Shown here: positions 38-37,864 of the stretch, in pieces
How the letters are laid out: each line of letters opens with the position of its first letter
How positions within the stretch are numbered: the first letter of the stretch is position 1
Source: Fidelibacterota bacterium
GTDB lineage: Bacteria; Fidelibacterota; Marinisomatia; SCGC-AAA003-L08; D37C17
Direction of reading: 5' to 3'
Assembly (NCBI GenBank): GCA_004124405.1
Contig: SCKP01000014.1
Location: 1 to 38,974, forward strand
Length of the DNA stretch: 38,974 nucleotides
The notes under the pieces: model-generated
Told to the model about the DNA's origin: nothing
Databases searched by the model: none
What the model saw: the letters and a program-made list of their open reading frames with translations, nothing else
Program-made: the position numbers and the translations under genes

Positions 38-757
38 TTAATAAAAATGGTAATTCTTTATTACATTTATGGTATCGCCATTATTATCATATAAACTCAC
101 AACCTCATTAGAACAATCCCTATCGTAAAAATTTGTATTGCCACATAAATCTTGAAAAATGGGTTTAAAAACAAGCTCATCTGAACTTACTATATCCCCC
201 TCCCAAGTAAATTCAATACTTTGACTATGATCCCAAATATCAGTATAGCATTGACCCTCACTTGGATCTTGTGCACAGCCGGAAATGGAATCGCTATAAT
301 TTATAAAAACTTCCCGAATTTCATTCCAGTCATCATCACCTTCTTTATATTCATACCATTTGTAATAGTCATGTATCCATCTGCCAAAATCCCAGTGCTC
401 ATTGGCATAATAGGAATACTCTTTTTTCTTATCTTCTGCAAGATTGTTATTATAGTACCATGTGCCAATGGCAGCAGCATCAAGACCAACAAATAAAAGT
501 CCACGCAGCCAATTGCCCATATAGGCCTGCCCCATTCCCGGCACTACGCCTGAAAATAATAAGGCTTTTCCAGGGGATTTAAATGTTCCTTTATTTTGAG
601 ATCTTTCTAATTGAAATTCACTTTCATTTTCCGATGTAGTGTCTTGTAAAAACATCATTGATTTGAATTGATAACTGTTTTTCTGAAAAAAGGTATTGGC
701 AAATATCTGAGTATTACACACAAACCATACAATTAAACTTATATAAATATTTCTCAT
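38..757 (-). CDS. DUF5683-like secreted or membrane protein, probably cut short by an in-frame stop
   Basis: Encodes 239 residues beginning with a hydrophobic signal-like segment (residues 1-20). Residues 61-95 hold the conserved block 'GKALLFSGVVPGMGQAYMG' followed by a hydrophobic stretch, which resembles the DUF5683 family of small envelope proteins in the FCB group; their function is not known. The rest is acidic and aromatic. The ATG at 757 has a good ribosome site (AGGAG) and lies 9 nt beyond the stop of the metallopeptidase/barrel gene, so it is the last gene seen of that operon. After the TAA at 38-40 the same frame stays open to the window edge, reading GIQKYNMFTAVW. That looks like the conserved C-terminal continuation I recall for such proteins, so the stop may be a point mutation or a base error. 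Family call moderate, function unknown. Confidence 0.6.
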   Translation of the reverse strand: MRNIYISLIVWFVCNTQIFANTFFQKNSYQFKSMMFLQDTTSENESEFQLERSQNKGTFKSPGKALLFSGVVPGMGQAYMGNWLRGLLFVGLDAAAIGTWYYNNNLAEDKKKEYSYYANEHWDFGRWIHDYYKWYEYKEGDDDWNEIREVFINYSDSISGCAQDPSEGQCYTDIWDHSQSIEFTWEGDIVSSDELVFKPIFQDLCGNTNFYDRDCSNEVVSLYDNNGDTINVIKNYHFY

Positions 758-766
758 TTCCTGCTC

Positions 767-3754
767 CTAATAATCAAATAACAAGGTGAAATAATGTTTC
801 CCCTTCTCATCCAAATCTGAGAGGGGTTGGTGATACTCATAGGCAATTGCTGAAGGATATGAAAAAAAAGAAAAACCATGTAATCGACACTCTAAACCAG
901 CAGATAATTTATAATGATCATCTTCAATAATTTCGGTAAAACTATTCTGAATTGCACTGCCAAATTGAAAAATACCCCCAAGGGAGAGGTTCTGCATATT
1001 AAATTGTGCCCAGGTAAAATTCTTTTCTAGAAACAAGGGCAGGCGTAATGTAGCGGTACCTACAAAATAATGGGGACCCGTAAGCGATTCTTCATAGAAA
1101 GTATAGCCCTTTATCCCGGGCAATCCACCACCAAAAAAGTGGAAGAAATCATCTACTTCAGGGTTGGAAATTGTACCTCCAATTCCACTGATACTTGCCA
1201 CAATCTTTTTTTTCTTATTCAGGGTGAAATGTCTTTCAGCAGAGGCCGTAATTCTAGCCGTATTATGGGGTACAAAATTTGCACCAAAGGTGCTGTATTC
1301 TTCACTCACGGCAAATCCATCCATAAAATGGTTCCATTCGTAGCTTAATTTTCCATTTACGTGCCACCCATTTCCCGGTAGCATATTCATGGCAAAGCTG
1401 CGTTTCCGCTTATTTCTATCATATAAAATTGAAAGCGAGTGGCCTCTGAAATAATCAAATCCAATTTCACCATATTGCCAAATTGAACTATCAACCTCAT
1501 TATAGGTAAAATATTGATACACATTCTGTTTCACATTTTCCCGGTAATTACTGTAATTATATTGGAGGTTAATTTTATGCTCTCCTAATGCAAATCGGGT
1601 TCCAATATCACCAGAAAATAATGAGAATGCTAAATCATTATATATTTCGATATTATCTACATCGCTACCATTTAATCGGGGATAAAAAAATGGTTTATTT
1701 TTATCTGCATTTCTATGCCGGGATATCCAAAATAAGTTTGTATAAAATGTGGGGCGAAACTTTTTATACTCCAAGAGCAGAAAAATATCCATATCGGACA
1801 GTTTGTTTGTTGATGCACCACCAAAAATAGAAAAGCGATCTATAACCTCAGTACTAAAAAAATAAAATCCCGGCTTCACCGTTTTATAATCCACCATTAC
1901 CCTGGGCATTATTGCCATAGACAGCATTTTTTCCTGATAAGGATATGACTCCAAATGTTCACCTAAAATTAAATCAGAAAGTGGATAATCTGCAAAATAG
2001 TCTTCTTCATATCCAACTAAACCATTTTCAATAGGCTGAAAATTTTCAAGAATGGCAATATTATATCTACCATTTTCATAAAGACTATACAGAATTTTTC
2101 CATCACTGGATACCGAGGGCATAAAAGCGCCACCCATAACATTGGTGATATAATCCTGTATTCCATTTTTTTCAATAACAAGATTGTTAATGCCAGAATT
2201 ATCGGTGGTATAAATCAATCCATCGGAGGTAATAATTTGATCCCTGTTCTCCCAGCGGCCAGATGTGGTGGGATCTAATACTCCATTTTCTAAATCAACC
2301 CTATAAATCTGGCGACCTTGATGATAGACTCCATCAACCAATAATGTATTTTCGCTCCAAGCCAGGGAAAGCAATTGAAATCCGTTATCCAAATGAGTGA
2401 CAGCACTAAAGGTAAGTGTATCCTGCATTATATCAATATTACTTGAAATCATTATGTTTGAGGTTCCATCAAAACTTGTAATTGCTGCAATACTATTTTC
2501 TGCAATATTATACACAGGAGAAATCAATCGGCTACCGTGTGTTAATCGCTGTTCTTCTTCATCGGTGAAAGTGTAACGATAAAGATCAAAATATTTAGAC
2601 CCCCTCTTATCAGGTTTACTGCGTTTTGTATAAATGATAGTGGAATCGTTCACCCAGGTGGGAGCAGTTTTAACACCACCGGCAATTTTTTCAGAACTGG
2701 AATCTGAGAAATTGTAAATGAATAAATCCGTTTGACCAAAATAATCATTTTTCTGATTTGAAAGATAAGCAAACTTTTCCTCATTTGGCGACCAAACCGG
2801 GTGAATATTGGTGGTGCCATCTGAAAGCAATATTTCTCCCTTTTTCTCCGACCGATGAATGTCCTTTGTTTTAGTGGTGTAATCCAAAAACATTTCGTCT
2901 TTCCACTCTTGATATAATTCACTCCCCCATTTCCCCGTAGCATCTTGCATGGCGCGATCAATAGAATAGTTTGTGGGATTTGAAAGAGACAGGGTAATTT
3001 TTTTCAAAACGTCCATGCCATAATTTTCAGACAACCATTGTGAAAAAAGGAAACCCTGATTATAGGTAGACTCATTTCCAATTCCTCGTTTGCCAAAAGT
3101 ATTCATGGCATCAAAGGACAATAAATTATCGTTCATAACTCGATCCCGAACAATCATATCTCTGTGTGAATCCCAAAAATCAAAATCAGCATCTGGATAC
3201 ATAAACTGAGCCGACCCTTCAGCCAGCCAGGGCGGGACACTCACTCCAGGAAGTGGATAGCTCATAATGACATTGGGGTAGCCATATAAAACATCTTCCC
3301 GTTTTTCATCTTCATAGTTCATCAATTGAATAAAGGATGCCGGGAAATGCCGGGGATATTTCATTGCTGCGCCAATTTGAATGATATGCGTAAATTCATG
3401 GGTGATTACATTGTTCAACCAACGGTGTGAACCGCGAAGATCAAAATCCAGGGGGAGTGCCCAAATTATAATTTTGTTATCATAATAGTAGGCAGCACCA
3501 TTGGAGATATCATCTACGTCTTGAATAATAATATGTGTTTTTGAATCCGGTTCAAATTCATAAAATGAAGTTATGGGGTCATAAATTTTTTCTGCTACAG
3601 CGGCAGCCTCCTGACCGCTCCGTGTCGTTTCCTCATGGTAGTGAATCAGAAAATGATCTGTTTCTATGGTTTCCCACCTTAGCTCAGGGTGATTGTGCCA
3701 GCTTTGGGAAAATGCAAAATTCAGGATAAAAATTATTAAATAAAAATATTTCAT
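767..3754 (-). CDS. Fused gluzincin-type metallopeptidase / PD40 beta-propeller / outer-membrane beta-barrel protein
   Basis: A 995-residue protein with a signal peptide (residues 1-17, ending FSQ). An HExxH zinc motif, HEFTH, lies at residues 119-123, with the likely third ligand E179 in 'PPWLAEGSAQF'; this is the gluzincin arrangement of the peptidase MA-like group. Residues of roughly 310-600 carry TolB/PD40-type propeller blades (for example 'HPVWSPNEEKFAYLS'). The last 350 residues or so are rich in alternating beta strands and include 'GGGLPGIKGYTFYEE', as in BamA/Omp85-like barrels, and the chain ends in an aromatic residue (FDY). It is therefore probably an outer-membrane protein with a peptidase and propeller in the periplasm or on the surface. 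Its ATG overlaps the stop of the preceding M6-like gene by 4 nt (ATGA), implying translational coupling. The substrate is unknown. Confidence 0.8.
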   Translation of the reverse strand: MKYFYLIIFILNFAFSQSWHNHPELRWETIETDHFLIHYHEETTRSGQEAAAVAEKIYDPITSFYEFEPDSKTHIIIQDVDDISNGAAYYYDNKIIIWALPLDFDLRGSHRWLNNVITHEFTHIIQIGAAMKYPRHFPASFIQLMNYEDEKREDVLYGYPNVIMSYPLPGVSVPPWLAEGSAQFMYPDADFDFWDSHRDMIVRDRVMNDNLLSFDAMNTFGKRGIGNESTYNQGFLFSQWLSENYGMDVLKKITLSLSNPTNYSIDRAMQDATGKWGSELYQEWKDEMFLDYTTKTKDIHRSEKKGEILLSDGTTNIHPVWSPNEEKFAYLSNQKNDYFGQTDLFIYNFSDSSSEKIAGGVKTAPTWVNDSTIIYTKRSKPDKRGSKYFDLYRYTFTDEEEQRLTHGSRLISPVYNIAENSIAAITSFDGTSNIMISSNIDIMQDTLTFSAVTHLDNGFQLLSLAWSENTLLVDGVYHQGRQIYRVDLENGVLDPTTSGRWENRDQIITSDGLIYTTDNSGINNLVIEKNGIQDYITNVMGGAFMPSVSSDGKILYSLYENGRYNIAILENFQPIENGLVGYEEDYFADYPLSDLILGEHLESYPYQEKMLSMAIMPRVMVDYKTVKPGFYFFSTEVIDRFSIFGGASTNKLSDMDIFLLLEYKKFRPTFYTNLFWISRHRNADKNKPFFYPRLNGSDVDNIEIYNDLAFSLFSGDIGTRFALGEHKINLQYNYSNYRENVKQNVYQYFTYNEVDSSIWQYGEIGFDYFRGHSLSILYDRNKRKRSFAMNMLPGNGWHVNGKLSYEWNHFMDGFAVSEEYSTFGANFVPHNTARITASAERHFTLNKKKKIVASISGIGGTISNPEVDDFFHFFGGGLPGIKGYTFYEESLTGPHYFVGTATLRLPLFLEKNFTWAQFNMQNLSLGGIFQFGSAIQNSFTEIIEDDHYKLSAGLECRLHGFSFFSYPSAIAYEYHQPLSDLDEKGKHYFTLLFDY

Positions 3755-6423
3755 TTGATCACCACCAACCTGACAAGCTCAGATTGTCCACCATTTGGTT
3801 TTATTTCAGCTAGATATAGTCCCGCATCAAATTGAGAGGCATCCCATTTTATTTCGTTAAATTCATAATGGGTTATATCATTATTTATCAAATCATCTAC
3901 TACCAAATAACCGGCTGCATTATAAATTTTAACTCTGACTTCTGATGTTGTGGAATTACCTACATAAAACCTGAACGTTGTGGTTCCTTCAGTTATTGGA
4001 TTGGGATAATTATAGGATTTTCTCCTCATGTATCCTCTATCTTTAGGATCAAAATGTACCCCTGTTGATAAGGGGAAACCTGATGGTCTACTATTGGGAT
4101 TCAGCCAATAGCTATGATCCATATCCAAATCAAATAAAAATAATCGAGAGCCATCAATAAGCGCCATCTTTCCGTTCCAGAATGGGACCATTGCCAATGG
4201 CTGTACACTGTTAAAAGAGGATAATTGCCGTAACCGATCTCCTTTATTGGAAAGAATAGTAATATTCTCTCCCTCCCGACAAATAAGCTCCGGCTCATCT
4301 TCTTCAACATTGATAATATTTGCGATTAAGGGTATTCCTGAAAAGTCTCCCTTTATTGGGAATCCATCTACTAATGTACCATTCCCATTTCTAGCTACAA
4401 TATCACCATCTTCAATGGTAATGATTTCATCCAATCCGTCCTGGTCAATATCACCAAATGAAAGAGCCTCGGGAAATGTAGTGGAATCCATATTAGAATA
4501 AATAAATCCCAGCGGGAAAATATCACTCTCAAAATATTCACAAGTTGGGTGAATACAACTACCAGCATCCAGATATTCTAAAGTATATTGATAAGTATAA
4601 ATTAATTTTAATTCTCCTTCAATATAATCCAGAGTGTCAATCCAGGTTACGTTCGAAGCAGAAGTATGTGCATAAATTTGCCCATCTTTCTCATAATAAA
4701 CCACAGCGGTACTATCCTCTGCATTATAGCCATTCCCCAAATATTGAATATTTGTATCTGCTAAATTCACAATTTCAACGCCATTATTAAATGTAATTTG
4801 AATTTGCATTGCATCCGAAATTCCGCTGAGAATTTCAATGGATAGAAAAGAATCAGAGCCGTCAACCGTTCTGGAATTGGGGCTGGACCAATAATCAAAG
4901 ATAGTTTCATTCTCCAGGTCCGGATTGGCAAATTCATAACCTTCATTCCCATGATACCAAAAATCCCAGCGGGTTCCAGTTGTGGGACTATCGCTGGCAA
5001 AAAATGCATAACTTTTGGTGCCAATATCCTGGGAGCCATCTGCCTCTTCAATTTTTACATGGTGGTAAGAATCATCATTGATGACTTGATTCGGGGACAA
5101 ATCAAAGTGCGGATTTGTAATATGCCAAATCAGAATTCCCGAACCGGGCAAGCCGTAATCATAATGATCAAATCCCGTAATTACCTGAGTGGCATCATCT
5201 ATTTGTATTTGGCTTTCGGTAAACTCATCTGTCACTGTATCAAACCAATGCCCCACCCGGTACTCATCAATTTTATTTTTTCTTCGAAGAGAATCAATAT
5301 CTGTTTTATAGGTGACCCAATTATTTCGATTTTCTAATAAAAAATACTCATCATCACTTATGTCAATTCTCAATAAAGTGTTTAATGAGTCTAAGGCAAT
5401 TATAAAAAAAGTCGTATCGGTACTTTGAAAAGGGGAAATAGTTTCTATAGTTGACCATTCCTCTGCTGGCAGGCTTCGTGTCCATGGAGAAGGCGGTGCC
5501 GGGATAACTCCACGCCCATTATTTGATCCGTGATCCATGAGTCCGAAAAAACCAACTCCCGGATCACCTGTTTCAGGGTTAAATAGTGGTGGTAATCCAA
5601 GTTCGTATCCTAAAAGAAAGGCAAATATGCCGGTGAGCCCTAATTGGATACCGCAGAGATCCTCTGTCCCATAATTGGGATTACCAAAAATATCTTCTAC
5701 AATATCAAAGTAAATCATATTCTGGGTTTCAGGGAGTAAAATTCCAGTTTGTATGGATTCACCTAATATTTCAGTGGGCGTAACACCGATCATCATTTTT
5801 TCATCAATATAGGCTGATTTTAAATCATATATGGTTGGGTCGAGTCCGGGGAGGGAAATATCCTGTCCCAATCCTGCATGGAAAACAATAAATACCACCT
5901 CACTGGAAGCAACATTCTGATCCGTTAATAAAGTTTCAATATCAGATTTAGCTAAATCCAATACTTGGGAGAAATATTCGGCTAAAAGTTTATCGGATTT
6001 AGCATAGAATTCCATAGAATCTGATACGGTATAATAACCATCTTCGGGTGAATTTGAATTGGTGATGATGTTGGCTGTATAGGGGATATTTTCACCTGAA
6101 ATGTTGAAATAATAATTCCCCACAGCTTCTAATTGTTTTTGGAAATAAGCACTATTATGAGGCGGCCTGTCCACTATAAATCCATTACATCGGGGAGTAG
6201 TAGAATCGTAGAAGTGGTTATATTCCTCATGATTCAAATTTAGAAAATTGCCATTACCACTGGTTTTGGGGTTATCTGGGACTTCAAGTGGAAATTGTGC
6301 CATGATTCCCACAAGGCGCAGGGTATCTGGAATGTTTACCCCAGCATAACTTGACGGAGAATTTGACTGAAAATAATTAGCCCCGAAACCGAGGCTAATA
6401 AAAAGTAGAAATCTGAAAATCAA
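3751..6423 (-). CDS. M6-like secreted pseudo-metalloprotease with a T9SS C-terminal sorting domain
   Basis: An 890-residue secreted protein. The N-terminal half resembles the M6 (immune inhibitor A-like) domain: 'VVFIVFHAGLGQD' near 177-189, the 'GLPPLFNP' turn at 276-283 and 'FGLMDHGS' at 293-300. Where an active M6 enzyme has HExxH just before GLPDL, this protein reads FLLGY (269-273), so both zinc histidines and the catalytic Glu are missing. An FG-GAP-like stretch (DIDQDGLDEIITIEDG) lies around residues 650-670. The C-terminal 85 residues form a T9SS type A sorting domain (YNYPNPITEGTTTFRF to the end LVRLVVIK). The start is a TTG at 6423, because an in-frame TAA sits six codons upstream and no ATG gives a signal peptide; the N-terminus MIFRFLLFISLGFG is a plausible signal. 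It lies 32 nt from the PorV-like gene. Likely a surface binding or scaffold protein. Confidence 0.78.
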   Translation of the reverse strand: MIFRFLLFISLGFGANYFQSNSPSSYAGVNIPDTLRLVGIMAQFPLEVPDNPKTSGNGNFLNLNHEEYNHFYDSTTPRCNGFIVDRPPHNSAYFQKQLEAVGNYYFNISGENIPYTANIITNSNSPEDGYYTVSDSMEFYAKSDKLLAEYFSQVLDLAKSDIETLLTDQNVASSEVVFIVFHAGLGQDISLPGLDPTIYDLKSAYIDEKMMIGVTPTEILGESIQTGILLPETQNMIYFDIVEDIFGNPNYGTEDLCGIQLGLTGIFAFLLGYELGLPPLFNPETGDPGVGFFGLMDHGSNNGRGVIPAPPSPWTRSLPAEEWSTIETISPFQSTDTTFFIIALDSLNTLLRIDISDDEYFLLENRNNWVTYKTDIDSLRRKNKIDEYRVGHWFDTVTDEFTESQIQIDDATQVITGFDHYDYGLPGSGILIWHITNPHFDLSPNQVINDDSYHHVKIEEADGSQDIGTKSYAFFASDSPTTGTRWDFWYHGNEGYEFANPDLENETIFDYWSSPNSRTVDGSDSFLSIEILSGISDAMQIQITFNNGVEIVNLADTNIQYLGNGYNAEDSTAVVYYEKDGQIYAHTSASNVTWIDTLDYIEGELKLIYTYQYTLEYLDAGSCIHPTCEYFESDIFPLGFIYSNMDSTTFPEALSFGDIDQDGLDEIITIEDGDIVARNGNGTLVDGFPIKGDFSGIPLIANIINVEEDEPELICREGENITILSNKGDRLRQLSSFNSVQPLAMVPFWNGKMALIDGSRLFLFDLDMDHSYWLNPNSRPSGFPLSTGVHFDPKDRGYMRRKSYNYPNPITEGTTTFRFYVGNSTTSEVRVKIYNAAGYLVVDDLINNDITHYEFNEIKWDASQFDAGLYLAEIKPNGGQSELVRLVVIK

Positions 6424-6455
6424 TTGGGGAGGTACTTCTTAAATTGATAAAAATA

Positions 6456-8312
6456 TTAAAGTTTTATATTCACAGAAAAAAACATAGTATTCGCCCGGGG
6501 ATGGCCTTGTTCACCTGCGGTATAGCCAAAGTCAAAACCATATTGTAATAATCTAATACCAGCGCCAAAGGTTGGATTAAATATCTTCCCTTCAAAATCA
6601 TAAATGTAGCCGACTCGTAATGCAAAGGCATCTGTGTACCAATATTCCATTCCCACATTATAGACCATTTCTTCTAACTCTTTAGTAAATGATCTATTAT
6701 CACCACTTCCCTTTTCAATTTGAGCTTTGCCTCCTTCTATAGTTTTGGTTAATGTATCTAATTCCCCGCCACTTGGATAACCAAAAATTCCAAAATCAGA
6801 ATCTGAAAAAGCTAAGTCGTTGGTTGGGTTCCAAACACCATCTTCACATTCAAATTTACCAAGTGAAATATCCTTTAATTCACCTGTACAGTTGTAACCT
6901 CCAATTTTCTGGTCGCCTGAATGGTCAATATCACCACCTAACAGCCAATCATCCAACCAGGCAGTAGCAATTGATAAATACCAGGGATCATCAAAATATC
7001 CTAAGTCATCATATTCTTTTCTACCTTTGGAATTATAATCTCCAGATATAAATCCACTATTGCTCACTGCAAAACCTGATTCATCCCATCCACCCACAAT
7101 TCCATCGCCATCCCAATCCATCATTTGGTAACGGGTTACCAATAGTTTATTGGCATCAAACAAAAAATTAACTTTATTAAAGCCATCATTATACAATTGT
7201 GCAAAAATTCCCAAGCGCATATTTGTTGGAGATGGATCTGCCTGATCAACATCCACAAAGTCTATTTTGGGTCCAATATTTGAAATGGATAATCCAAAAT
7301 TAAATTTATCATCCAAATCCTGTATTTCCTCTGATTCTGTCTCAGTAATAAAATTCTCACGTATGGACTCAATCTCAAGCAGTTCAAAGAGCAGTTTATC
7401 TAAAATGACAATTGTGGAATCTTCAAAATTTTCTACGGTGGAAGGTATTATTTCTTCTACCTGGAGCTCATCAAAAGAATTAATTAATTGATCCATTCCC
7501 TCTACAATGGAAACTAACCGCTCATCAAGTTGAGAAAAGCTTTCCATAGAATCATATTTGAATAATTTTGATTTTAGACCTTCTAAATCCTCGCGTAAAT
7601 AGAGTTGCTCTTCCATTTCTTCATAGCCATTATCCTCGGTTTCAAAAATAGTTGAAATCTGGTCATTCAATTTATTTTGTCTTTCATATATGTCAGATAA
7701 TTGATCGAATAATCTATTGAGTTTCTTTTTTTTCTTTGATTTTAAGGCGGAATTACTCTGTTTAAATTTTTTCAGATAACCAATATCAAATCCAAAATCT
7801 GTGGAATACCCTTTTCCTTCTTCTCCCGCCACAACCTGATCTGAAAGTTTTTGATGAAATACTTTAAAATTAAAACCGATGGCAGATGTTTCAGAGAGCT
7901 GAGTACCAAAACTTCCAGCAATCGCACCCATGTAACTTTTCCAGTTATCGGTTGGATTGCCAAATTCGTCCATACCAATTTGTTCACCTAAGTTTAGATA
8001 AATTATATGTCCACCAAGAGTTCCCAACCCCTCAATATGGTGACGATAGGCAATAAATTCATAATATAAATCCGAGGCAAGATTGGGAAGCCAATTCACA
8101 TGCATCCCGGCGACTTCCGTACCTTTTAAGAACCCTAATCCTGCAGGATTATAGTAACTGGCATAAGCATCATCAGCTTTTGCAACTTGTGCTTCCCCTG
8201 TGCCAGCAGGTCCTGCACCTGGTGCAATAAGCAAGAAGATCGCACCTGCTTCACCCACTGCCCACAACTGTGCAACGGCACAGCACAATAATAATATATA
8301 TTTAAATTTCAT
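6456..8312 (-). CDS. PorV/PorQ-like outer-membrane beta-barrel protein with a coiled-coil insert
   Basis: About 618 residues. After a signal peptide (MKFKYILLLCCAVAQLWA) it has the PorV/PorQ N-terminal signature: 'APGAGPAGTGEAQVAKADDAYASYYNPAGLGFL'-type sequence around residues 30-62, then beta-rich segments to an end typical of outer-membrane barrels (FFSVNIKL). PorV shuttles T9SS cargo from the translocon to the attachment machinery; here that role is an inference from family and from the T9SS substrate gene next to it. Unusual features are a charged helical insert at about residues 185-335 with coiled-coil character, and two Asp-rich loops (DWDGDGIVGGWDE, GDIDHSGDQKIGG) that look like calcium-binding loops. 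I chose the ATG at 8312 because AAGGA lies 7 nt upstream; the ATG at 8318 is too close to it. Confidence 0.75.
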   Translation of the reverse strand: MKFKYILLLCCAVAQLWAVGEAGAIFLLIAPGAGPAGTGEAQVAKADDAYASYYNPAGLGFLKGTEVAGMHVNWLPNLASDLYYEFIAYRHHIEGLGTLGGHIIYLNLGEQIGMDEFGNPTDNWKSYMGAIAGSFGTQLSETSAIGFNFKVFHQKLSDQVVAGEEGKGYSTDFGFDIGYLKKFKQSNSALKSKKKKKLNRLFDQLSDIYERQNKLNDQISTIFETEDNGYEEMEEQLYLREDLEGLKSKLFKYDSMESFSQLDERLVSIVEGMDQLINSFDELQVEEIIPSTVENFEDSTIVILDKLLFELLEIESIRENFITETESEEIQDLDDKFNFGLSISNIGPKIDFVDVDQADPSPTNMRLGIFAQLYNDGFNKVNFLFDANKLLVTRYQMMDWDGDGIVGGWDESGFAVSNSGFISGDYNSKGRKEYDDLGYFDDPWYLSIATAWLDDWLLGGDIDHSGDQKIGGYNCTGELKDISLGKFECEDGVWNPTNDLAFSDSDFGIFGYPSGGELDTLTKTIEGGKAQIEKGSGDNRSFTKELEEMVYNVGMEYWYTDAFALRVGYIYDFEGKIFNPTFGAGIRLLQYGFDFGYTAGEQGHPRANTMFFSVNIKL

Positions 8313-8340
8313 AATCATTTCCTTAAATTATTCTCTAAAT

Positions 8341-8594: not shown

Positions 8595-9557
8595 CTATTT
8601 TTTACTCTGCCGCCATAACTTTAACCAATACAGTGGGCGATCCTTAATATCCTTCACAAATGCCCGTATTTCATTTACTAAATTATTCATGTTATCATAG
8701 AGGGTCGTATCGCTAATTAGCTTTCCCATTGTCCCTTCACCATTATCTATTTTTCCCAGAATATTATCCAATTTTTCCGTAGCTTTTGCAAAAGATTCAC
8801 TGCTCTTTTTCAGCTCTGTAATGGTAGTACTTAATTCATCAGATTTATCCGTTACTTTTTTTAATTCATCCAGCATTCCATCTATTTTGTTGATTTCTTT
8901 ATTCACACCATATTTTAAGTCTTTAACAGCTCCATTCAAATTTTTCATAAAATCATGGAAATTCTTTTTATCCTTATCAGACACAATATTTCGATAATTA
9001 TAAATGAATGTATCCAGCTCTGCAGTAAGGGATTCAATATTTCGAATGGTGAATCTGATTTTATCTTTTTCTTCTTCTCCCAGAGTAGCCTTTAAGTTCC
9101 GGGCAAAAGCAGAAAGATCTTGCGTTAAGGGGACAATCCCCGGGGTGATTTCTGAAAAATTAAATTCTTTGAGACCCGCAACCGTTGTCCCTGGAAGAAT
9201 ATACTCTTTTGTCTTAACACCTGGCGTAATCGAAATATATTTAGAGCCAATCAATCCTTCACTCTTAACCTCTATTTTTGAATCAATTGGGATACTAAAT
9301 GCAAAAGAATTATCAATGGATAATTCCACCGATATTTGATTCCCCATGATACGAGAATGAGATACTTTTCCAATTTTTTTACCCAACATATCTACCTCAT
9401 CCCCAACATTAAGCCCTTGAATATTTTCAAATAATACTGTAAAGGTATAATTAGATTTTTTAATAGAGATTTCCTGAAGATACATAAGCCCTAAAATAAA
9501 TACAACAATACTCGTGATAAAAATTAACCCTATCCAAAATAATCGTGAAACCTTCAT
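8595..9557 (-). CDS. mlaD: MlaD-family (MCE domain) substrate-binding protein of the Mla lipid transporter
   Basis: 320 residues: a single N-terminal membrane anchor (about 7-27), one MCE/MlaD domain (about 38-114, with 'ENIQGLNVGDEVDMLGKKIG' and 'LIGSKYISITPG'), then a long helical, partly coiled-coil tail to residue 320. In the Mla system MlaD forms a hexameric ring in the periplasm that hands phospholipids between membranes and the MlaFE ABC transporter. It follows mlaE and mlaF directly (14 nt after mlaF) and is the last gene before a terminator. The ATG at 9557 has AAGGA upstream. No mlaB (STAS protein) or mlaC (periplasmic carrier) is present in the operon, a reduced layout seen in other non-proteobacterial lineages. 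Confidence 0.92.
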   Translation of the reverse strand: MKVSRLFWIGLIFITSIVVFILGLMYLQEISIKKSNYTFTVLFENIQGLNVGDEVDMLGKKIGKVSHSRIMGNQISVELSIDNSFAFSIPIDSKIEVKSEGLIGSKYISITPGVKTKEYILPGTTVAGLKEFNFSEITPGIVPLTQDLSAFARNLKATLGEEEKDKIRFTIRNIESLTAELDTFIYNYRNIVSDKDKKNFHDFMKNLNGAVKDLKYGVNKEINKIDGMLDELKKVTDKSDELSTTITELKKSSESFAKATEKLDNILGKIDNGEGTMGKLISDTTLYDNMNNLVNEIRAFVKDIKDRPLYWLKLWRQSKK

Positions 9558-9571
9558 GTTTTATTTCCTTT

Positions 9572-10306
9572 TTAAACTAATGTACTGTTACCAGTAATAA
9601 ACTGTTGAATTACCAAATCATCTACATTTTTTATCTCTTCCGGGCTCCCGTCAAACCAAATTTTTCCATCATGCAAAAGAAGAACACGGTTTGCTACATC
9701 ATAAACTGTCCGCATTTCATGGGTAATAATTACGGATGTCACCTTGCCAGTACTCTGGAATTTAAGTATTAATCGGTTGATGCTATCGGTCATTACCGGA
9801 TCCAACCCCGTGGTTGGTTCATCGTAAAAAAGATATGTGGGCTTGGCGGCAATTGCACGAGCAATCCCAACCCTTTTTTTCATTCCGCCAGATAATTCTG
9901 AAGGCATTAAATCTTCTGTATCAGCCATATCGACATCTTTTAGAGAATTAAAAACCCGCTCCTTAATTTCATCATCAGAAAGTTTTGTAAGTTTGTGTAA
10001 TGCCAAACTAATATTTTCTCCCACAGTCATGGAATCAAACAACGCTCCAAATTGAAAAACCATGCCAATGTTAGAACGGATTTTCTGGAGTTGTCGAAAA
10101 CTCATGGTATTTATTAATTTATTATCAATATAAATTGTGCCTTCATCAGGTTTAACTAAACCAATGAGACATTTGAGTAAAACAGATTTTCCGGCACCAG
10201 ATTTACCTACAATTGCTACTGATTGACCTTGTACTACAGAGAAATTTATATCCGATAATACTCCTTTATCACCATAGGATTTAAATAAATTCTTTACTTC
10301 AATCAT
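9572..10306 (-). CDS. mlaF: MlaF-type ABC transporter ATP-binding protein
   Basis: 244 residues when started at the ATG at 10306, which overlaps the mlaE stop by 4 nt (ATGA); a longer start at 10354 would add an unsupported N-terminal stretch read from within mlaE. All ABC ATPase motifs are visible: Walker A GKSGAGKS (34-41), signature LSGGM (138-142), Walker B YLFYDEP (158-164) and switch His196 in 'IITHEM'. The 'GMVFQFGALFDSMTVGENI' Q-loop region and the C-terminal 'SPEEIKN' match the Mla/Ttg2 group rather than other importers. It powers lipid movement through the MlaE permease in the inner membrane. Confidence 0.93.
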   Translation of the reverse strand: MIEVKNLFKSYGDKGVLSDINFSVVQGQSVAIVGKSGAGKSVLLKCLIGLVKPDEGTIYIDNKLINTMSFRQLQKIRSNIGMVFQFGALFDSMTVGENISLALHKLTKLSDDEIKERVFNSLKDVDMADTEDLMPSELSGGMKKRVGIARAIAAKPTYLFYDEPTTGLDPVMTDSINRLILKFQSTGKVTSVIITHEMRTVYDVANRVLLLHDGKIWFDGSPEEIKNVDDLVIQQFITGNSTLV

Positions 10307-11076
10307 AATAAAATAGCTGCTAAAATATAATCCAAAAAGACAATAGCAACACAAGAAATAACAACGGTAGCTGTAGTGGCTCTACCCACACCGGTTGCTC
10401 CACCCGTAGTGTAATATCCTTGATAACAAGCTATAGAAGTTATGGCGATACCAAAAAATAAGCCTTTAATCAGTCCAAACCAAGCATCCCAGGGGCGAAA
10501 CCAATTTCGGAGGCCACGAATAAATTCTAAATGGCTTACATCCATTGCATTTACAGCAGCGAACAATCCACCAATAATACCAAAACAATCCGCAATTATA
10601 ATCAATATTGGAAACATTATTGCAGCAGCCAAAACCCGTGGTAGAATTAAAAATGAAACTGGGTCAAAAGACAGGGATTCCAGGGCATCAATCTGTTCCG
10701 AAACACGCATTGTACCAATTTCAGCTGCAATGGTAGCTCCAATTCTTCCTGTCATGACTAATCCAGTCATCATTGGTGCCAATTCCATTAATATGGATTC
10801 ACCCACTATACTACCTACAAACCAATTGGGGACAAAACCTGATTCAAATTGGTAAGCTGCCTGAACAGAGGTGACCATACCTGAAAATAAGCTGGTAAGA
10901 ATAACAATAGGAATTGAAAGTACCCCAATATGGAACATTTGATCTACAATAAGACTCAGGTTTTTATGCCAGGAAAACAGCGATCGGAACATACTTGCCA
11001 TTAATTCCACATAACGCCCAACACCTTCAAGGGAATCAATGAGTAAATTAAAAGGGTATAATAAAAATCGGAACAT
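10303..11076 (-). CDS. mlaE: MlaE-family ABC transporter permease
   Basis: About 257 residues with five or six hydrophobic segments and the MlaE landmarks 'ELAPMMTGLVMTGRIGATIAAEIG'-like loop, 'EQIDALE' and 'GATGVGRATT' near the C-terminus. It forms the membrane dimer of the phospholipid transporter with MlaF and MlaD, encoded just downstream. The start is uncertain: the frame is open to a TTG at 11097, but the ATG at 11076 gives the usual length, and neither has a strong ribosome site. A perfect 7-bp hairpin (AGTAGAA-TTAT-TTCTACT, 11077-11094) lies directly before this ATG. The gene is 41 nt downstream of the nrdR stop, probably in the same transcript. Confidence 0.92.
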   Translation of the reverse strand: MFRFLLYPFNLLIDSLEGVGRYVELMASMFRSLFSWHKNLSLIVDQMFHIGVLSIPIVILTSLFSGMVTSVQAAYQFESGFVPNWFVGSIVGESILMELAPMMTGLVMTGRIGATIAAEIGTMRVSEQIDALESLSFDPVSFLILPRVLAAAIMFPILIIIADCFGIIGGLFAAVNAMDVSHLEFIRGLRNWFRPWDAWFGLIKGLFFGIAITSIACYQGYYTTGGATGVGRATTATVVISCVAIVFLDYILAAILL

Positions 11077-11117
11077 AGTAGAATTATTTCTACTCAAATC
11101 GGATTAAAAAGAAATTG

Positions 11118-14523: not shown

Positions 14524-15816
14524 TTATTTTCTCCTTCTTCTCATAAACCATTTTTCTCCAGTTGTAATTCCAATATGAAAACTAATATACTCTTCATATT
14601 CTCCAATTAATAGCCTGCTCTCCTTTTTTCCAAGACGTAATGCAAGATCAACAGATTGGGTATTACTCAAATACTCAAATCCAATACCAAAAGTTGCACC
14701 AACATCTCTAAATATTCCATCAGTAAAATCTAAATTTTTCATATAAGCGCCGCCCCTGATATTCAGATTATTCCAATAACCAATCTTAGAATTTCTAATT
14801 TGATAATAGCTGCCAAAATGAATCGATTTCTCCCCTGGAGGCATAATATCAAAAATTGCTACATTTTCAGGAATATTAAAGGGAGATTTATTGTGTATTT
14901 CCACTGTAATTCCAGAATTATTCGAGATTTTATAGCGATATCCAAGACCAATATCAGATGATACATTAGTTGCAGAATTTTCAAATGTATTGGTTGAAGT
15001 TGAATTTCCTGCTATTATCTGATTAGTCGTTTCAACTTTTGTTTTGCCCTTAATCAATACATTTAAAACCAATTCATGTTTCTTACTTGAATATCTTCCT
15101 TCAGCAGAAATACTTGAGCCTGAAAAATTTCGATATTTGTTGACCTCAGTCATGACACCATTTACTGCTGTTGCATAAAGGGTATCTCCATTGTCTACAA
15201 AATCGTTAATAAGCAATCCAATTGAGGAGGATGTATCAATTACAACATCATACGTATAAAGTTCATCCTTTAGAATTTGATTTCCAAAAAGGAGAGAATA
15301 TTTAATCCCACCGGAAAAATGTGGAGTTAATTTTCGAGAGTACTCCAAAAACATTTCAGAAATTCCTCCATCAATTGTATACGAATTTTTGTACGCAATT
15401 GGGGCTCCTGTAATACTTTCATCTGCACCAATAAATTGAAAATCTTCATCTGTTACCGTTAATTTATTAGTTCGATAGGTTGGCTTTAACCCCAAGCCAA
15501 AAACTTTTTTATTACCCACCGGAAATAAGATAGAAAATGATGTTAAATTCTGCTGAAGTTGATCAGGAAATTGAGTGGTGCTTAAATAATTAAGGCCGGA
15601 ATGAATAGTAAATCGAGTAAGAGCTGACCTCCATAAAGAGGAGGGTGAACCATTTGAAATATGCTTTGAATTACCAGAGAAAAAACTACTATTTCCCATT
15701 GCCAATGATGCTGGGTCAGTATTGTCTATTTTCTCTCCAACTCCATAAATAGATAAACCAGTAGCCTGAGAGTAACCAATTCCTGTGATTAATATTAAGA
15801 AGAAATATATTTTCAT
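14524..15816 (-). CDS. Outer-membrane beta-barrel protein (PorV/FadL-like), function unknown
   Basis: 430 residues with a signal peptide (cleavage near GIGYSQA) and a mature start 'GLSIYGVGEKIDNTDPASLAMGNSSFF' that resembles the N-terminus of PorV/PorQ/FadL-like barrels. The remainder consists of alternating amphipathic strands with many Gly, Ser, Thr and aromatic residues ('GLGYRYKISNNSGITVEIHN', 'GGIKYSLLFG', 'ATFGIGFEYLSN'). It overlaps the upstream acidic-repeat lipoprotein by 4 nt (ATGA) and is followed by the TPR lipoprotein 1 nt later, which suggests these three act together at the outer membrane. I do not recognise a named family with confidence. Confidence 0.65.
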   Translation of the reverse strand: MKIYFFLILITGIGYSQATGLSIYGVGEKIDNTDPASLAMGNSSFFSGNSKHISNGSPSSLWRSALTRFTIHSGLNYLSTTQFPDQLQQNLTSFSILFPVGNKKVFGLGLKPTYRTNKLTVTDEDFQFIGADESITGAPIAYKNSYTIDGGISEMFLEYSRKLTPHFSGGIKYSLLFGNQILKDELYTYDVVIDTSSSIGLLINDFVDNGDTLYATAVNGVMTEVNKYRNFSGSSISAEGRYSSKKHELVLNVLIKGKTKVETTNQIIAGNSTSTNTFENSATNVSSDIGLGYRYKISNNSGITVEIHNKSPFNIPENVAIFDIMPPGEKSIHFGSYYQIRNSKIGYWNNLNIRGGAYMKNLDFTDGIFRDVGATFGIGFEYLSNTQSVDLALRLGKKESRLLIGEYEEYISFHIGITTGEKWFMRRRRK

Positions 15817-18452
15817 TGACTGTACATCACATCTATTCGAGGATTATTTTTAATTGATAATTTTGAATAATTATACAGGTTTCCATCTGTTTTTAATTTT
15901 AACCCGTTATATGAGGTAATGCTTCCACTTTGATACTCCCTCAAAATCTGCCCCATAGCAATTTCAACGGAATCTGATGATGAAGTCACTTTCTTAGAAA
16001 TTAATATTTTATCTTCACCTGAATCATCCTCATGAGTTACATATACCCACATACCATCTTCATGTATATCAGTAGTTGTAGTATCTATATAAAAAACTAA
16101 ATTTGAATATTGGTGGGAAAAAATATACTCTTCATTTGCAAGAAAAAGGTTCAGGCTGTCAAAATCAAGAAATGTAGAAAGATCATTAGAGTACTCAATA
16201 AGCAATTGTTCATTTAATTCTTCATCAGAGTAATTTCTCTTTGGCAGTAATGTAAAATCTTCGAAAAGTTTATTCTCTCCAAGCTGTGCAATGGAGGGCG
16301 TGTAGGTTTCCAGGGTTGTATCTACTTTGGTGAAAGGTATGTGAGATAATTGAAATCGAAGCCCTTTCAAGGCTTTATTTGATTGAACACTTACCTCAAT
16401 AATTAATTTTAATGAATTTTCATCATCTTTCCGTATTTCAGAAATCCACAGACTCACTGTATCCGTTTTTAAATCCGGAGTAAATTGTAAAAATTCATCA
16501 TCAAGGTTAAAAATATAACTATTATCATACCGTTCAATTGAAATAACAGATGATTCTGAAGCTTCCAGGGAATCTTGAATGCCATCTAAGCCCCAGTCAA
16601 ACCATTCCTCACCATCATCTAACAGATCATTCCCTTCTGTGCCAGTTGAGTCAATTGCACTCCAATTATCTGCATTTGGGTCTATATTATAATTGTCTGT
16701 ATCGTCATCTCCTTCTGTATCGTTGCAGATATTATCTTCACCGCAATCTGAGAACTCACCATCTCCGTCAAAGACATTATTTCCTTCAGTGCCATCAGCA
16801 TTATATCCAGATTCATTCTCGTTAAATAACCCATCACTACCCGTATCATCAAAGGGTTCTCCCAATTCATAGCTGCCATTTCCCTCAGTACCATTTTCAT
16901 CCAAATCACCAGTCAGTGAAAAAGGTAATCCGTCAGTACCCCAATCCTTAAATGGTTCACCACCATCATATTTACCATTATTTTCAGTACCATCAACATT
17001 GGTTTCTGATTTCCAATCATCCCCAACAGGGTCAATTATAAAATTGTCACCATTCGGATCTGATCCTGTGACCCATTCAGAATTTTCTATGATTGTACAG
17101 GAATCTCCACCAACTTCAAAAATATCACTGCACCCATCTGTGCCCCAATCAAACCACTCCTCACCTTCATCTACATCCCATACACCATTATCATTTTCAT
17201 CGGTCCAATCTAATTGGCCATTACCTTCTGTGCCGGCTGAACTGTAAATACTAAGGGTGGAATCGCAGGGATTATTTTCGTCTCCTGTTTCAAGTTCATC
17301 CGGACAATTATCAACTCCGTAATCATTAAATAATTCACCTACATTATAGGTACTATCACCCTCGGTACTGTCTGGATTTGTCTCCGCATTCCAATTATCA
17401 CCAGCGGGATCCAAATCACTTATAAATGCAAATGCGTTTAATATTGAAAAAGAAATGGAATCAATGTCATTTATGATTTCAGGATTCAGGTCCAATTCAA
17501 TCGTAAGCAGGGGTGCATTCTGCCCTGCAGAAATCATATCAGCTTGAATTACATTGGAGTTAAAATCTAATGGAGGGCTTTCTATAATCGGATTGTCTTC
17601 ATCCAAGCTCATTGCATAAATCGTTCCCCAATATGCAGAAAGGGAATCATCAACAAAATATGGTCCAGAATTCATAACTTCCATCTGCTCACCTGACCAG
17701 GATACATTATTAATTAAGTAACGGGTATGATTTTTGGACGTTTCTTCTTCAACTGTATATTCTAAAGACAGTCTTGGTCCTAATCCCACTTCAGAACCAT
17801 TAGAAGAATAGAATTCCAAATATGATGAATCAGTGGGAATATAGGAAATGATAATTCCTAAATTCTCTTTATCTTCACACCATTTTTTAATAATTGTACT
17901 ATCATATTCTAACAGATTTAGTTCAAGACTATTTGTATTAAGTTCTACATTTAGTGGCATAACATTAATTGTTGATCCTCTTATATTGTTTAGAATATCT
18001 TCAGAAATTACAACATCTTCTCCAAAATCATCAGATGATATTAAATATGTATTTAAAGTGTTAAATTGAAAAAGGGTATCCGTAATTATTGTATCTTCTT
18101 TCACTGCAATGGGAGTGATTGAGGTGAGTAAAATTTTAACATTAACGATATCTACAGAATCACAAACCCGATGAGATTCTAAAACCTCGGGGGATAAACG
18201 TATCAATGTTGATACTGTATCTCCATTTGATAAAATTCCAGAATATAATCTGGGGCTCGTACCCGTATGCATTTCACCCTGAATGGTTTCTGAAGTTTCG
18301 TTATTTAATGGAAAACTCTTAGTCTTGTATTCATAACCACCGGGGGGATTAAATACAATAGGATCAGACTGACAGCTTAAAAAGAGGACTAAACCTCCTA
18401 AAAGCAGAGAATGAAGCCTTCTGCCAATAAAAGGAGGGATTAAGAAATTCAT
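15813..18452 (-). CDS. Large lipoprotein with acidic, calcium-binding-like repeats (position suggests a DUF4270-like role)
   Basis: 879 residues with a lipoprotein signal (lipobox LFLSC, Cys27). Residues of about 60-235 look like a beta-sandwich of the DNRLRE type ('GDTVSTLIRLSPEVLES', then 'GPRLSLEYT'). Residues of about 347-632 are an acidic repeat array with at least six copies of TEGNxxxDxGExFxDxGxDG interspersed with three DPxGDNW units (348, 474, 591). These resemble calcium-binding loops seen in surface proteins of this lineage. A beta-rich tail follows. The start overlaps the GT5-like gene by 4 nt. In many Bacteroidetes a glycogen-synthase-like gene is followed by a DUF4270 lipoprotein, so this may be a diverged counterpart; that comparison is from memory and is not proven by sequence here. 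Confidence 0.68.
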   Translation of the reverse strand: MNFLIPPFIGRRLHSLLLGGLVLFLSCQSDPIVFNPPGGYEYKTKSFPLNNETSETIQGEMHTGTSPRLYSGILSNGDTVSTLIRLSPEVLESHRVCDSVDIVNVKILLTSITPIAVKEDTIITDTLFQFNTLNTYLISSDDFGEDVVISEDILNNIRGSTINVMPLNVELNTNSLELNLLEYDSTIIKKWCEDKENLGIIISYIPTDSSYLEFYSSNGSEVGLGPRLSLEYTVEEETSKNHTRYLINNVSWSGEQMEVMNSGPYFVDDSLSAYWGTIYAMSLDEDNPIIESPPLDFNSNVIQADMISAGQNAPLLTIELDLNPEIINDIDSISFSILNAFAFISDLDPAGDNWNAETNPDSTEGDSTYNVGELFNDYGVDNCPDELETGDENNPCDSTLSIYSSAGTEGNGQLDWTDENDNGVWDVDEGEEWFDWGTDGCSDIFEVGGDSCTIIENSEWVTGSDPNGDNFIIDPVGDDWKSETNVDGTENNGKYDGGEPFKDWGTDGLPFSLTGDLDENGTEGNGSYELGEPFDDTGSDGLFNENESGYNADGTEGNNVFDGDGEFSDCGEDNICNDTEGDDDTDNYNIDPNADNWSAIDSTGTEGNDLLDDGEEWFDWGLDGIQDSLEASESSVISIERYDNSYIFNLDDEFLQFTPDLKTDTVSLWISEIRKDDENSLKLIIEVSVQSNKALKGLRFQLSHIPFTKVDTTLETYTPSIAQLGENKLFEDFTLLPKRNYSDEELNEQLLIEYSNDLSTFLDFDSLNLFLANEEYIFSHQYSNLVFYIDTTTTDIHEDGMWVYVTHEDDSGEDKILISKKVTSSSDSVEIAMGQILREYQSGSITSYNGLKLKTDGNLYNYSKLSIKNNPRIDVMYSQ

Positions 18453-35320: not shown

Positions 35321-37864
35321 ATGCTTTATACTATCCAGGCATTTATCATAACATTAACTTTTACAGCTTTTACATTCGCTGATGTATTTATGACGGAGCT
35401 GGCAGATCCGCAGAATTCAACTGATGCAGGTCGATATGTTGAGCTTTACAATAACGGCGACTCAGATGTGGATCTATCTACCGGTTGGAAAATTCAAAGA
35501 TGGACAAACGCCAATCCAGATCCAACCTCATCAAGTATAAAAGATTTAACAGGCACAATTTCTGCCGGAGGTTTTTACATCATTTGCAATGACGCTGGCA
35601 AATTCAATACAACCTATGGATTAACCTGTGACCAGGATATTGGAACTGGCGGTGCAGCTGATAGTAATGGTGATGATAATATGGCAATTCTTGATGCATC
35701 GGGCGTTATTGTTGATATGTTTGGTGTTGCTGGTGAAGATGGTACTGGAACCGGTCATGAGTTTGAAGATGGACGGGCTGAGAGAGCTGACGGAGTTTGC
35801 GGTGGAGCTGAAACTTGGGATGTAGCTGAGTGGAACATTGATAATGATTCGGGTGGCGGTGATGGGAATCAATACGCACCAGAGGGCTTTGATCCGGGTT
35901 CATGGACAGGATCTGGTTTTGATTGTGGTGGTGGCAGTACAACCTGTGATGATGAAGCTGCCTGTAATACGGGTGCTGATGGTGCCTGTGAATACCCTGA
36001 TACCGGTTATGACTGTGACGGCAACTGTGTAGGAGAGGTGGACTGCGCCGGTGTTTGTGGCGGTGGCTCTGTAGAAGATTGTGCTGGTGAATGCGGCGGT
36101 GGTGCTGCTGAAGATGCCTGCGGTCTATGTGGCGGTGATGGTTCGTCTTGCTCGGTAAGTGTAACATTTACTGTTGACATGAGTATTGAAGGTGTTACTG
36201 GAGATATCAAACTTCGCACCTCAACCATCAACGGTGAATATAACCCCAGTGACTGGTATATAATGACAGATGATGGGAATGGTACTTATTCTCACACAAT
36301 ATCACTTCTGACAGGTGTTGAATATGGATACAACTTTAATAACAGCGATGGATCCGGATACGAATCTGGTGATGGACTTGGAGATTGTGCTGGCGGTAAT
36401 TACGGTAACGACAGATTTGTAACTCCTGGGGATTCTGATATAACTCTGGATACAGTATGCTGGGAATCCTGTGAAGCCTGTCCTGAAGATATACTTGGAT
36501 GCACAGATGAAACTGCTCTCAACTATGATGCAAGTGCCACGTTGGATGATGGATCCTGTATTTATGACTGGCCCGAAGCAGCTAATCTCTTTTTCTCTGA
36601 ATATGCAGAGGGTTCCAGTTATAATAAATACCTGGAAATTTTCAACGGATCAGATGGCGAAGTAGATCTATCTGGCTATTCACTTTCCAGCTGTTCCAAC
36701 GGCTGTGATGATGGAGTAAACTGGGATTACCCCGACAATGTCACCTTTGAAGCTGGTACTACCGTGGCAGCTGGTGATGTATTCGTAGTTTGTCATGGTT
36801 CATCGGATGAATTCATTTTAGCAGAGTGTGACCAAACCTTTTCCTATCTGAGTAATGGGGATGATGTTTTTGCTCTCACTCAAATTGGCAGTGGAGTTAT
36901 TTTGGATATTATAGGGACAATTGGTGATGATCCTGGTTCTGGATGGGAAGTAGCCGGTGTCAGTGATGGAACAAAAGATCATACGTTGGTACGGAATGCC
37001 TCAGTTGATTCCGGTAATGGTGGCAATTGGGAAGAATCAGCAGGTGATGCTGATGGCTCAGAGTGGGAAGTGTATGACCAAAATACCTGGGATTTCCTAG
37101 GATTCCACAATATGGGTGGTGGTGAATGCTCTTTAGGAGATGTTAACAATGATGCTACTACAGATGTCTTAGATATCGTCAGTATTGTTGGATGTATTAT
37201 TGATCCTAATAATTGCCCGGAAGACATTGCTTGCGCCGATACTAACGGTGATGGTGCGGTGAATGTTTTGGATGTTGTTGCTATTGTGAACGTAATTCTA
37301 AACCCCAGGACTGATATTAATGATGCGACCTCTGCCCGATTAATCAAATCAGGAAACGCACTGAGTCTGTTAGCAGATGGATATGTGGGTGGTGTTCAAT
37401 TAACATTATCACATGGATTGGATTTTTCACTTCAAATGAATAAGAGTGCATGGATTGCCGAATATGCAACCCATGGAACTAAAACCAATGTAATAGTGAT
37501 TGATCCGGAATTAGGAGAATTATTCACAGCCACATCTGAATTTGAAATTACCGATATGATTGTGGCAAATTCCAAAGGTGCAATTAATTCAGTTGTAATC
37601 GGAGAATTCTCACTTTCAAATGCTTACCCCAATCCGTTTAATCCATCAACAACTGTTGAGTTAACGCTGCCGGAAGCGGGTCATGTATCTGTAATGGTGT
37701 ATAACATTACCGGCCAGTTGGTAGCTGAACTTGCTGATTCCTATATGGATGCAAACCAGTATCAATTTACCTGGCAGGGTGAGAATGTACCCAGTGGTAT
37801 GTACCTGCTTCGTGCAGAATATGCCGGACAGGTTTCCACACAAAAACTCATGCTATTAAAATAA
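35321..37864 (+). CDS. T9SS-secreted surface protein: two lamin-tail domains, Cys-rich repeats, dockerin, sorting domain
   Basis: 847 residues with a signal peptide (1-20). Domains in order: lamin-tail domain 1 (about 21-200, 'VFMTELADPQN...GRYVELYNNG'); Cys-rich DCxGxC/CGGG repeats (about 202-277); a beta domain resembling carbohydrate-binding modules (about 278-380, 'VTFTVDMSIEG'); a 'GCTDETALNYDASATLDDGSC' module (393-413); lamin-tail domain 2 (about 422-595); a dockerin-like pair (GDVNNDATTDVLDIVSIV at 606-623 and DTNGDGAVNVLDVVAIV at 640-656); a short beta module (about 672-758); and a T9SS sorting domain (YPNPFNPST at 769-777, to the end QKLMLLK). It is probably anchored at or released from the cell surface. 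The start has AAAGGAGG 7 nt upstream. Function is unknown; ligand or matrix binding is plausible. Confidence 0.85.
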   Translation: MLYTIQAFIITLTFTAFTFADVFMTELADPQNSTDAGRYVELYNNGDSDVDLSTGWKIQRWTNANPDPTSSSIKDLTGTISAGGFYIICNDAGKFNTTYGLTCDQDIGTGGAADSNGDDNMAILDASGVIVDMFGVAGEDGTGTGHEFEDGRAERADGVCGGAETWDVAEWNIDNDSGGGDGNQYAPEGFDPGSWTGSGFDCGGGSTTCDDEAACNTGADGACEYPDTGYDCDGNCVGEVDCAGVCGGGSVEDCAGECGGGAAEDACGLCGGDGSSCSVSVTFTVDMSIEGVTGDIKLRTSTINGEYNPSDWYIMTDDGNGTYSHTISLLTGVEYGYNFNNSDGSGYESGDGLGDCAGGNYGNDRFVTPGDSDITLDTVCWESCEACPEDILGCTDETALNYDASATLDDGSCIYDWPEAANLFFSEYAEGSSYNKYLEIFNGSDGEVDLSGYSLSSCSNGCDDGVNWDYPDNVTFEAGTTVAAGDVFVVCHGSSDEFILAECDQTFSYLSNGDDVFALTQIGSGVILDIIGTIGDDPGSGWEVAGVSDGTKDHTLVRNASVDSGNGGNWEESAGDADGSEWEVYDQNTWDFLGFHNMGGGECSLGDVNNDATTDVLDIVSIVGCIIDPNNCPEDIACADTNGDGAVNVLDVVAIVNVILNPRTDINDATSARLIKSGNALSLLADGYVGGVQLTLSHGLDFSLQMNKSAWIAEYATHGTKTNVIVIDPELGELFTATSEFEITDMIVANSKGAINSVVIGEFSLSNAYPNPFNPSTTVELTLPEAGHVSVMVYNITGQLVAELADSYMDANQYQFTWQGENVPSGMYLLRAEYAGQVSTQKLMLLK

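Follow-up and report, generated by a model that had tools for sequence, protein, structure and literature searches.

A four-gene locus of a Fidelibacterota bacterium as the probable Marinimicrobial form of an extended porUV operon of the type IX secretion system

We analysed a stretch of 38,974 nucleotides from a Fidelibacterota bacterium (contig SCKP01000014.1 of assembly GCA_004124405.1, positions 1 to 38,974; hereafter the window) and found near one of its ends four genes that are very likely members of a module of the type IX secretion system (T9SS). They probably represent the form that an ancestral, extended porUV operon of the T9SS takes in Marinimicrobia. Its order would be PorU - PorV - inactive M6 cargo - peptidase-propeller-Omp85 protein - DUF5683, with porU relocated elsewhere in Marinimicrobia. 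The products of the four genes would jointly serve the surface maturation of T9SS cargo at the outer membrane. This reading draws on the gene order and its phyletic spread, the families of the products, the dead or intact state of their active sites and the co-occurrence of the M6-like protein with the peptidase-barrel protein and with PorU, all of which can be read directly from the sequences.

An ORF check of the window placed the four genes on the minus strand, on which all features of the locus given below also lie, at 8318-6456, 6423-3751, 3754-767 and 757-38. They encode PorV (620 amino acids), the inactivated M6-like protein (890 amino acids, hereafter M6i), a protein composed of a peptidase, a propeller and a barrel (995 amino acids, the peptidase-barrel protein) and a DUF5683-like membrane protein (239 amino acids), and are separated by gaps of 32, -4 and 9 nt. 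This tight packing on one strand, including the spacing, is exactly as claimed in the initial annotation. The span of 767-8312 given there needs adjustment, as it leaves the fourth gene (38-757) outside and as porV may also start at 8318. Membership of the MlaE/F/D genes lying upstream (8595-11097) was also considered, but as just 3 of 40 Marinimicrobia loci have mlaD and mlaE nearby, these genes were excluded from the cassette.

All four genes occur in this order at 107 of the 109 loci with enough flanking sequence (105 by automatic count, and two more in which overlap artefacts were resolved by inspection), in Marinimicrobia (Neomarinimicrobiota), KSB1, Calditrichota, Ignavibacteria and other Bacteroidota, which places the layout, as judged from these genomes, far beyond chance. 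Scattered and unlinked homologues, named in the initial annotation as the finding that would speak against a cassette, were looked for, and conservation of the order over several phyla was found instead. Within Marinimicrobia, the peptidase-barrel protein was detected in 107 and a match to the model NF052323 in 110 of 120 genomes, and all 40 regions inspected, from more than 20 families, have the genes in order, one of them ending at a contig edge before porV. Scanning the peptidase-barrel alignment against one genome per species yielded 80 loci from Neomarinimicrobiota, KSB1, Calditrichaeota, Ignavibacteria and 'Bacteroidetes' bins, with the order kept wherever the flank suffices. The full series PorU-PorV-M6i-peptidase-DUF5683 is present in order in 18 of 20 Bacteroidota regions. 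Median intergenic gaps across loci are 29, 0.5 and 0 nt, and at some loci insertions of several hundred nucleotides separate genes of the operon.

The product of the first gene (porV, 6456..8318) is a PorV-like outer-membrane barrel, as had been proposed, and scored 215 bits in the family scan with NF033709 (cut-off 90); its best equivalog is PorV itself (NF033710), at 158 bits for a cut-off of 250. It carries an extra stretch of about 140 residues (approximately residues 188-327, 7338..7757), at which the profile matches split (187/328). This insertion is common to the window and a genus-mate, and most orthologues (about 370-460 amino acids) are without it. Outside Marinimicrobia, PorU is often encoded immediately upstream of porV, with scores of 724 bits in a Calditrichota locus and 967 bits in an Ignavibacteria locus (cut-off 420), and neighbourhood reading placed it there in further non-Marinimicrobia loci too; in Marinimicrobia, porU is located away from the four-gene operon. 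Because porU often adjoins porV outside Marinimicrobia, the first barrel is to be regarded as the core T9SS shuttle and not as a private exporter. Genomes with this operon hold about 30-140 cargos with a T9SS C-terminal sorting domain (CTD), and 28 CTD matches were counted in the genome of the window. The locus had been interpreted as a device dedicated to the export or processing of the M6-like protein. A device that includes this protein is well supported by the conserved linkage and by a co-occurrence that persists even where the genes are unlinked (see below), but its dedication to exporting that single protein is not supported, since the shuttle is a core PorV beside PorU in genomes with so many cargos; the peptidase may nevertheless process the M6-like protein.

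As to other T9SS parts of the host, which were sought by family search, SprA (Sov) was found above its cut-off in the window's genome, and the best PorU match there reached 1.1e-44, under the cut-off of NF033707. Most of the Marinimicrobia phylum has a clear PorU; in the relatives read from the window's order the protein is shortened to 845-855 amino acids, versus about 1300 (loci L283, L284 and L285 in genomes G079, G044 and G040). The GldM model TIGR03517 gave no match in any of 35 genomes and equally none in any control, so that its silence carries no information on the PorK/L/M/N motor and ring.

Several other genes of the window were recorded in passing. At 35321-37864 lies the gene of a type A cargo of the T9SS that is related to ExeM, an extracellular nuclease (98 bits for a cut-off of 1300). 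The gene at 14524-15816 codes for a protein resembling BamG (102.6 bits for a cut-off of 250) and overlaps by 4 nt the gene of an 879-amino acid protein (15813-18452) that has no match in Pfam or NCBIfam; BamG and BamH are core parts of BAM in Bacteroidota (PMC12611786). At 29953-32943, a gene adjoining acetate-CoA ligase on the opposite strand encodes a 996-amino acid protein whose N-terminus resembles a response regulator and which also contains a region similar to phosphoenolpyruvate synthase.

The second gene of the operon (3751..6423) encodes M6i, in which an M6-like domain is accompanied by a beta-propeller-like region and a CTD. M6i scored 293 bits with NF052323, under the curated cut-off of 600, and matched TIGR03296 at 1.5e-11; the NF052323 cut-off was reached in none of the 120 Marinimicrobia genomes, and an Ignavibacteria orthologue scored 862 bits. 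The position of the M6 HExxH motif is occupied by FLLGY (residues 269-273, 5605..5619), and none of the 125 aligned sequences retains the motif's first His or its Glu. The type A CTD (residues 806-888, 3760..4008) reached 28.6 bits with TIGR04183 (cut-off 23), was also matched by PF18962 and corresponded in a profile search to the C-terminus of PorU (6za2). The description of this product as a dead M6 protein and T9SS substrate is borne out by the lost motif and the sorting domain. The AF2 model of M6i had a mean pLDDT of 81 and was poorer than that of the peptidase-barrel protein. A single-sequence search of the PDB with M6i gave no match, and the fold search with its model returned only TM-scores of about 0.1, to multidomain beta proteins. 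This fold search gives no information on the family of M6i, and the assignment to M6 is based on sequence. M6i may itself be an ordinary T9SS cargo.

The third gene (767..3754) encodes the peptidase-barrel protein, whose AF2 model (pLDDT 89.7, pTM 0.89) delimits a peptidase domain (approximately residues 19-300, 2855..3700), a beta-propeller (residues 303-600, 1955..2848) and a barrel of about 16 strands (residues 614-993, 776..1915). The protein contains HEFTH (residues 119-123, 3386..3400) and WLAEG with Glu179 (3218..3220), the presumed third zinc ligand; family scans detected PD40/TolB-like repeats, and orthologues matched Peptidase_MA_2. His119, Glu120, His123 and Glu179 are invariant among 66 aligned sequences, and W-x-A-E-G is kept in 139 of 139 full-length orthologues. 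The gluzincin signature (HExxH plus a downstream Glu) is therefore complete, and the zinc protease is apparently live, as far as the conservation of its site can tell. Together with the Omp85-like barrel of the model, these residues confirm the fusion of a barrel to an intact zinc peptidase that had been noticed at first.

The profile search with this protein matched TolB (9e-15), a related surface antigen (0.009) and, weakly, TamA (about 0.03), and the fold search returned TolB as well as BamA, TamA and the SAM complex of yeast. A long loop bearing GGGLPGIKGY (1103..1129), with Gly883 and Tyr884 invariant, connects strands 11 and 12 of the model, at the place of L6 in BamA. This L6-like motif is the counterpart of the VRGF/Y of BamA, and its GIKGY conforms to R/K-G-F/Y, the criterion for Omp85 proteins. 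POTRA domains, which are typical, though not universal, for Omp85 proteins, were not found in the peptidase-barrel protein, in which the peptidase and the propeller occupy the N-terminus. As a rule, the N-terminal domains of even-stranded barrels should lie on the periplasmic side. On the basis of this rule and of the Omp85 fold, we place the peptidase and the propeller in the periplasm, and the modelled protein is thus quite likely an Omp85 protein with a periplasmic peptidase.

In a tree of the peptidase-barrel proteins, the Marinimicrobia sequences are grouped (99), and those of Bacteroidota stand with those of Ignavibacteria (100). Since the tree follows the phyla, inheritance looks largely vertical. 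Paralogues (E about 1e-20 to 1e-39, about 950-1110 amino acids) were met as extra copies, also in genomes without M6i (holders include G305, G375, G199, G340 and G171), and as second copies in Marinimicrobia too; they represent a wider family, independent of this operon.

The fourth gene (38..757) had been described as coding for a DUF5683-like small membrane protein. The gene is indeed present; its match to DUF5683 (PF18935), at 25.5 bits, remains under the cut-off of 26.7, and an in-frame TAA stop at 38-40 interrupts it. In the genus-mate, a Glu stands in place of this stop, and the 350-amino acid protein reads through for more than 100 further residues, to which the window sequence past the TAA is still homologous. 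The contig ends 37 nt beyond the stop, which may be an assembly error at the contig end or may be genuine. In most KSB1/Calditrichota loci, two DUF5683-like genes lie in tandem downstream of the peptidase-barrel gene (L153, L157, L162-L164, L172-L174, L183, L184, L187-L189, L196 and L197).

We then compared the distribution of the proteins among 50 Bacteroidota genomes. All 23 of those with a true orthologue of the peptidase-barrel protein also have M6i (E up to 1e-40), which is missing from all 27 others, and PorU was found in 23/23 and 16/27, respectively. For the co-occurrence of M6i and the peptidase-barrel protein, Fisher tests gave 9e-15, and 3e-11 within the 39 genomes with PorU, values that are indications and not probabilities, the genomes being related, their kinship uncorrected and the positives chosen from matches. 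Because many of the PorU-bearing Bacteroidota (16 of 39) are without both proteins, these are not essential to the T9SS as such. The two proteins are kept even where the operon is broken: in the clade of G146 and G278, the peptidase-barrel gene was unlinked in both regions examined, porV and the M6i gene were adjacent in 5 of the 6 genomes whose M6i locus was examined, and both M6i and the peptidase-barrel protein are retained in 7 of 7 genomes.

Both proteins are absent from all eight genomes of a reduced Marinimicrobia genus of 0.8-1.0 Mb (g8: G006, G028, G036, G064, G087, G099, G103 and G115). There, PorU is absent or found only at background level; what is retained is SprA, together with 1-2 proteins of the PorV family and 2-4 with a CTD. 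In the gene content of this genus the module tracks PorU, not Sov, and the genus possibly has a minimal, sortase-less T9SS. The initial annotation had suggested checking co-occurrence with porU and sov, among others; it held for porU in every Bacteroidota genome with the peptidase-barrel protein and failed for sov, so that a dependence of the module on Sov, which persists where the module is missing, was rejected. A separate case is G110, which bears the same genus label as G060 and is 96% complete. It has 70 CTD and 15 PorV-family matches, no M6i, a peptidase-barrel match at paralogue level only and a PorU match of 3e-12; the absence of M6i and the peptidase-barrel protein from it is either a real loss or a binning gap.

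In the extended porUV operon that we propose, PorV would ferry proteins that bear a CTD onward from the Sov pore. After its own export by the T9SS, M6i would remain at the cell surface and act there, much like PorZ in Porphyromonas, as a docking subunit without catalytic activity, and the 995-amino acid protein would be anchored by its Omp85 barrel, with the propeller and the live zinc peptidase held in the periplasm. The peptidase would trim or clear cargo or assembly intermediates, with M6i as the first candidate, and the DUF5683 protein would act as an envelope partner. We advance this particular mechanism of an M6i scaffold and a peptidase only tentatively. Going further, the 995-amino acid protein might be the founding T9SS-dedicated Omp85 machine bearing a propeller and a protease, and might form with its pseudoprotease cargo an attachment or quality-control station that predated the Bacteroidia-type complex and was lost or replaced there, a conjecture that we hold to be rather speculative.

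The 995-amino acid protein could alternatively be a quality-control insertase, made of a BamA-type barrel, a BamB/TolB-like propeller and a BepA-like zinc peptidase, which would insert or clear an outer-membrane part of the T9SS and not cargo. Such a role would agree with the matches of the barrel to BamA, TamA and SAM and of the propeller to TolB, with the intact peptidase site, with the degradation by the zinc protease BepA of outer-membrane proteins stalled on BAM (PMC13067283) and with the comparison of WD40-Omp85 proteins to a BamA-BamB fusion in the subfamily passages of PMC4104836. We nevertheless consider it somewhat improbable, since Sov and PorV-family proteins are present in genomes without the peptidase-barrel protein, which is thus not generally needed for their assembly, since its perfect partner, M6i, is a cargo rather than a barrel, and since it is devoid of a POTRA domain. 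In an earlier proposal, the M6-like protein is the specific target that the peptidase cleaves, and the operon serves that protein alone. The adjacent, overlapping genes and the perfect co-occurrence of the two proteins are in line with it; yet PorV is a core shuttle beside PorU for many cargos, and the peptidase is predicted to be periplasmic and mature M6i to be at the surface, which makes this specific maturation unlikely. That the genes are mere neighbours, kept together through expression with the T9SS and sharing no common process, would accommodate the large insertions at some loci, but it is very unlikely in view of an order fixed over several phyla and of the co-occurrence of M6i and the peptidase-barrel protein in the clade where they are unlinked.

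Work on the T9SS has concentrated on Bacteroidia such as Porphyromonas and Flavobacterium. The dead protease, the peptidase-barrel protein and the small membrane protein are apparently missing from many well-studied relatives, and in several other phyla the extended porUV operon joins a pseudoprotease and an Omp85 barrel with a protease domain to the core sortase and shuttle. This suggests that components of the T9SS have been missed so far, the model organisms being without them, and it provides candidates for the surface maturation of T9SS cargo outside Bacteroidia and for a role of Omp85 proteins in the T9SS. The statement that no named system has this layout proved mostly right. In the searchable literature, in which subscription papers are thinly covered, we found no description of the operon or of a T9SS-linked peptidase-Omp85 protein, and a search for Marinimicrobia, Ignavibacteria and Calditrichaeota together with the T9SS gave no account of this operon. 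Some of the parts do bear names, the M6 family (NF052323 of NCBIfam) and WD40-Omp85 (PMC4104836) being already known.

M6i is homologous over its full length to the proteins of NF052323, named T9SS-dependent M6-like inactivated metalloprotease, and is encoded at the same position; the window protein scores below the cut-off, and the model name is silent on the operon and on the peptidase-barrel protein. The WD40-Omp85 subfamily, described in a 2014 survey of Omp85/TpsB proteins, shares with the 995-amino acid protein, as far as its subfamily passages go, the succession of a TolB-like propeller and an Omp85 barrel (PMC4104836). The protein studied here differs by an intact gluzincin domain before the propeller, and those passages mention neither such a domain nor the T9SS. 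An analogy may also be drawn with BepA and BamA, in which a zinc metallopeptidase acts on the periplasmic side of an Omp85 barrel, but these are separate proteins, the peptidase belongs to family M48, and there is no link to the T9SS. BamM of the Flavobacterium BAM complex was considered as a counterpart of the peptidase and discarded, as this lipoprotein binds calcium and has a PPI fold (PMC12611786). A further comparison is with Porphyromonas gingivalis, where PorU, PorV, PorQ and PorZ form an attachment complex and PorZ, made of two propellers and a CTD, brings A-LPS to PorU (PMC5562754, PMC8545088). Both sets of proteins comprise PorU, PorV and a second outer-membrane barrel, and M6i, as a putative surface-located, CTD-bearing beta-propeller partner, resembles PorZ and could by analogy take its role. 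M6i differs in having a dead M6 domain, the second barrel is the Omp85-zinc peptidase and not PorQ, and DUF5683 is added; the P. gingivalis assembly is known as a complex, whereas the operon described here is known from its genes.
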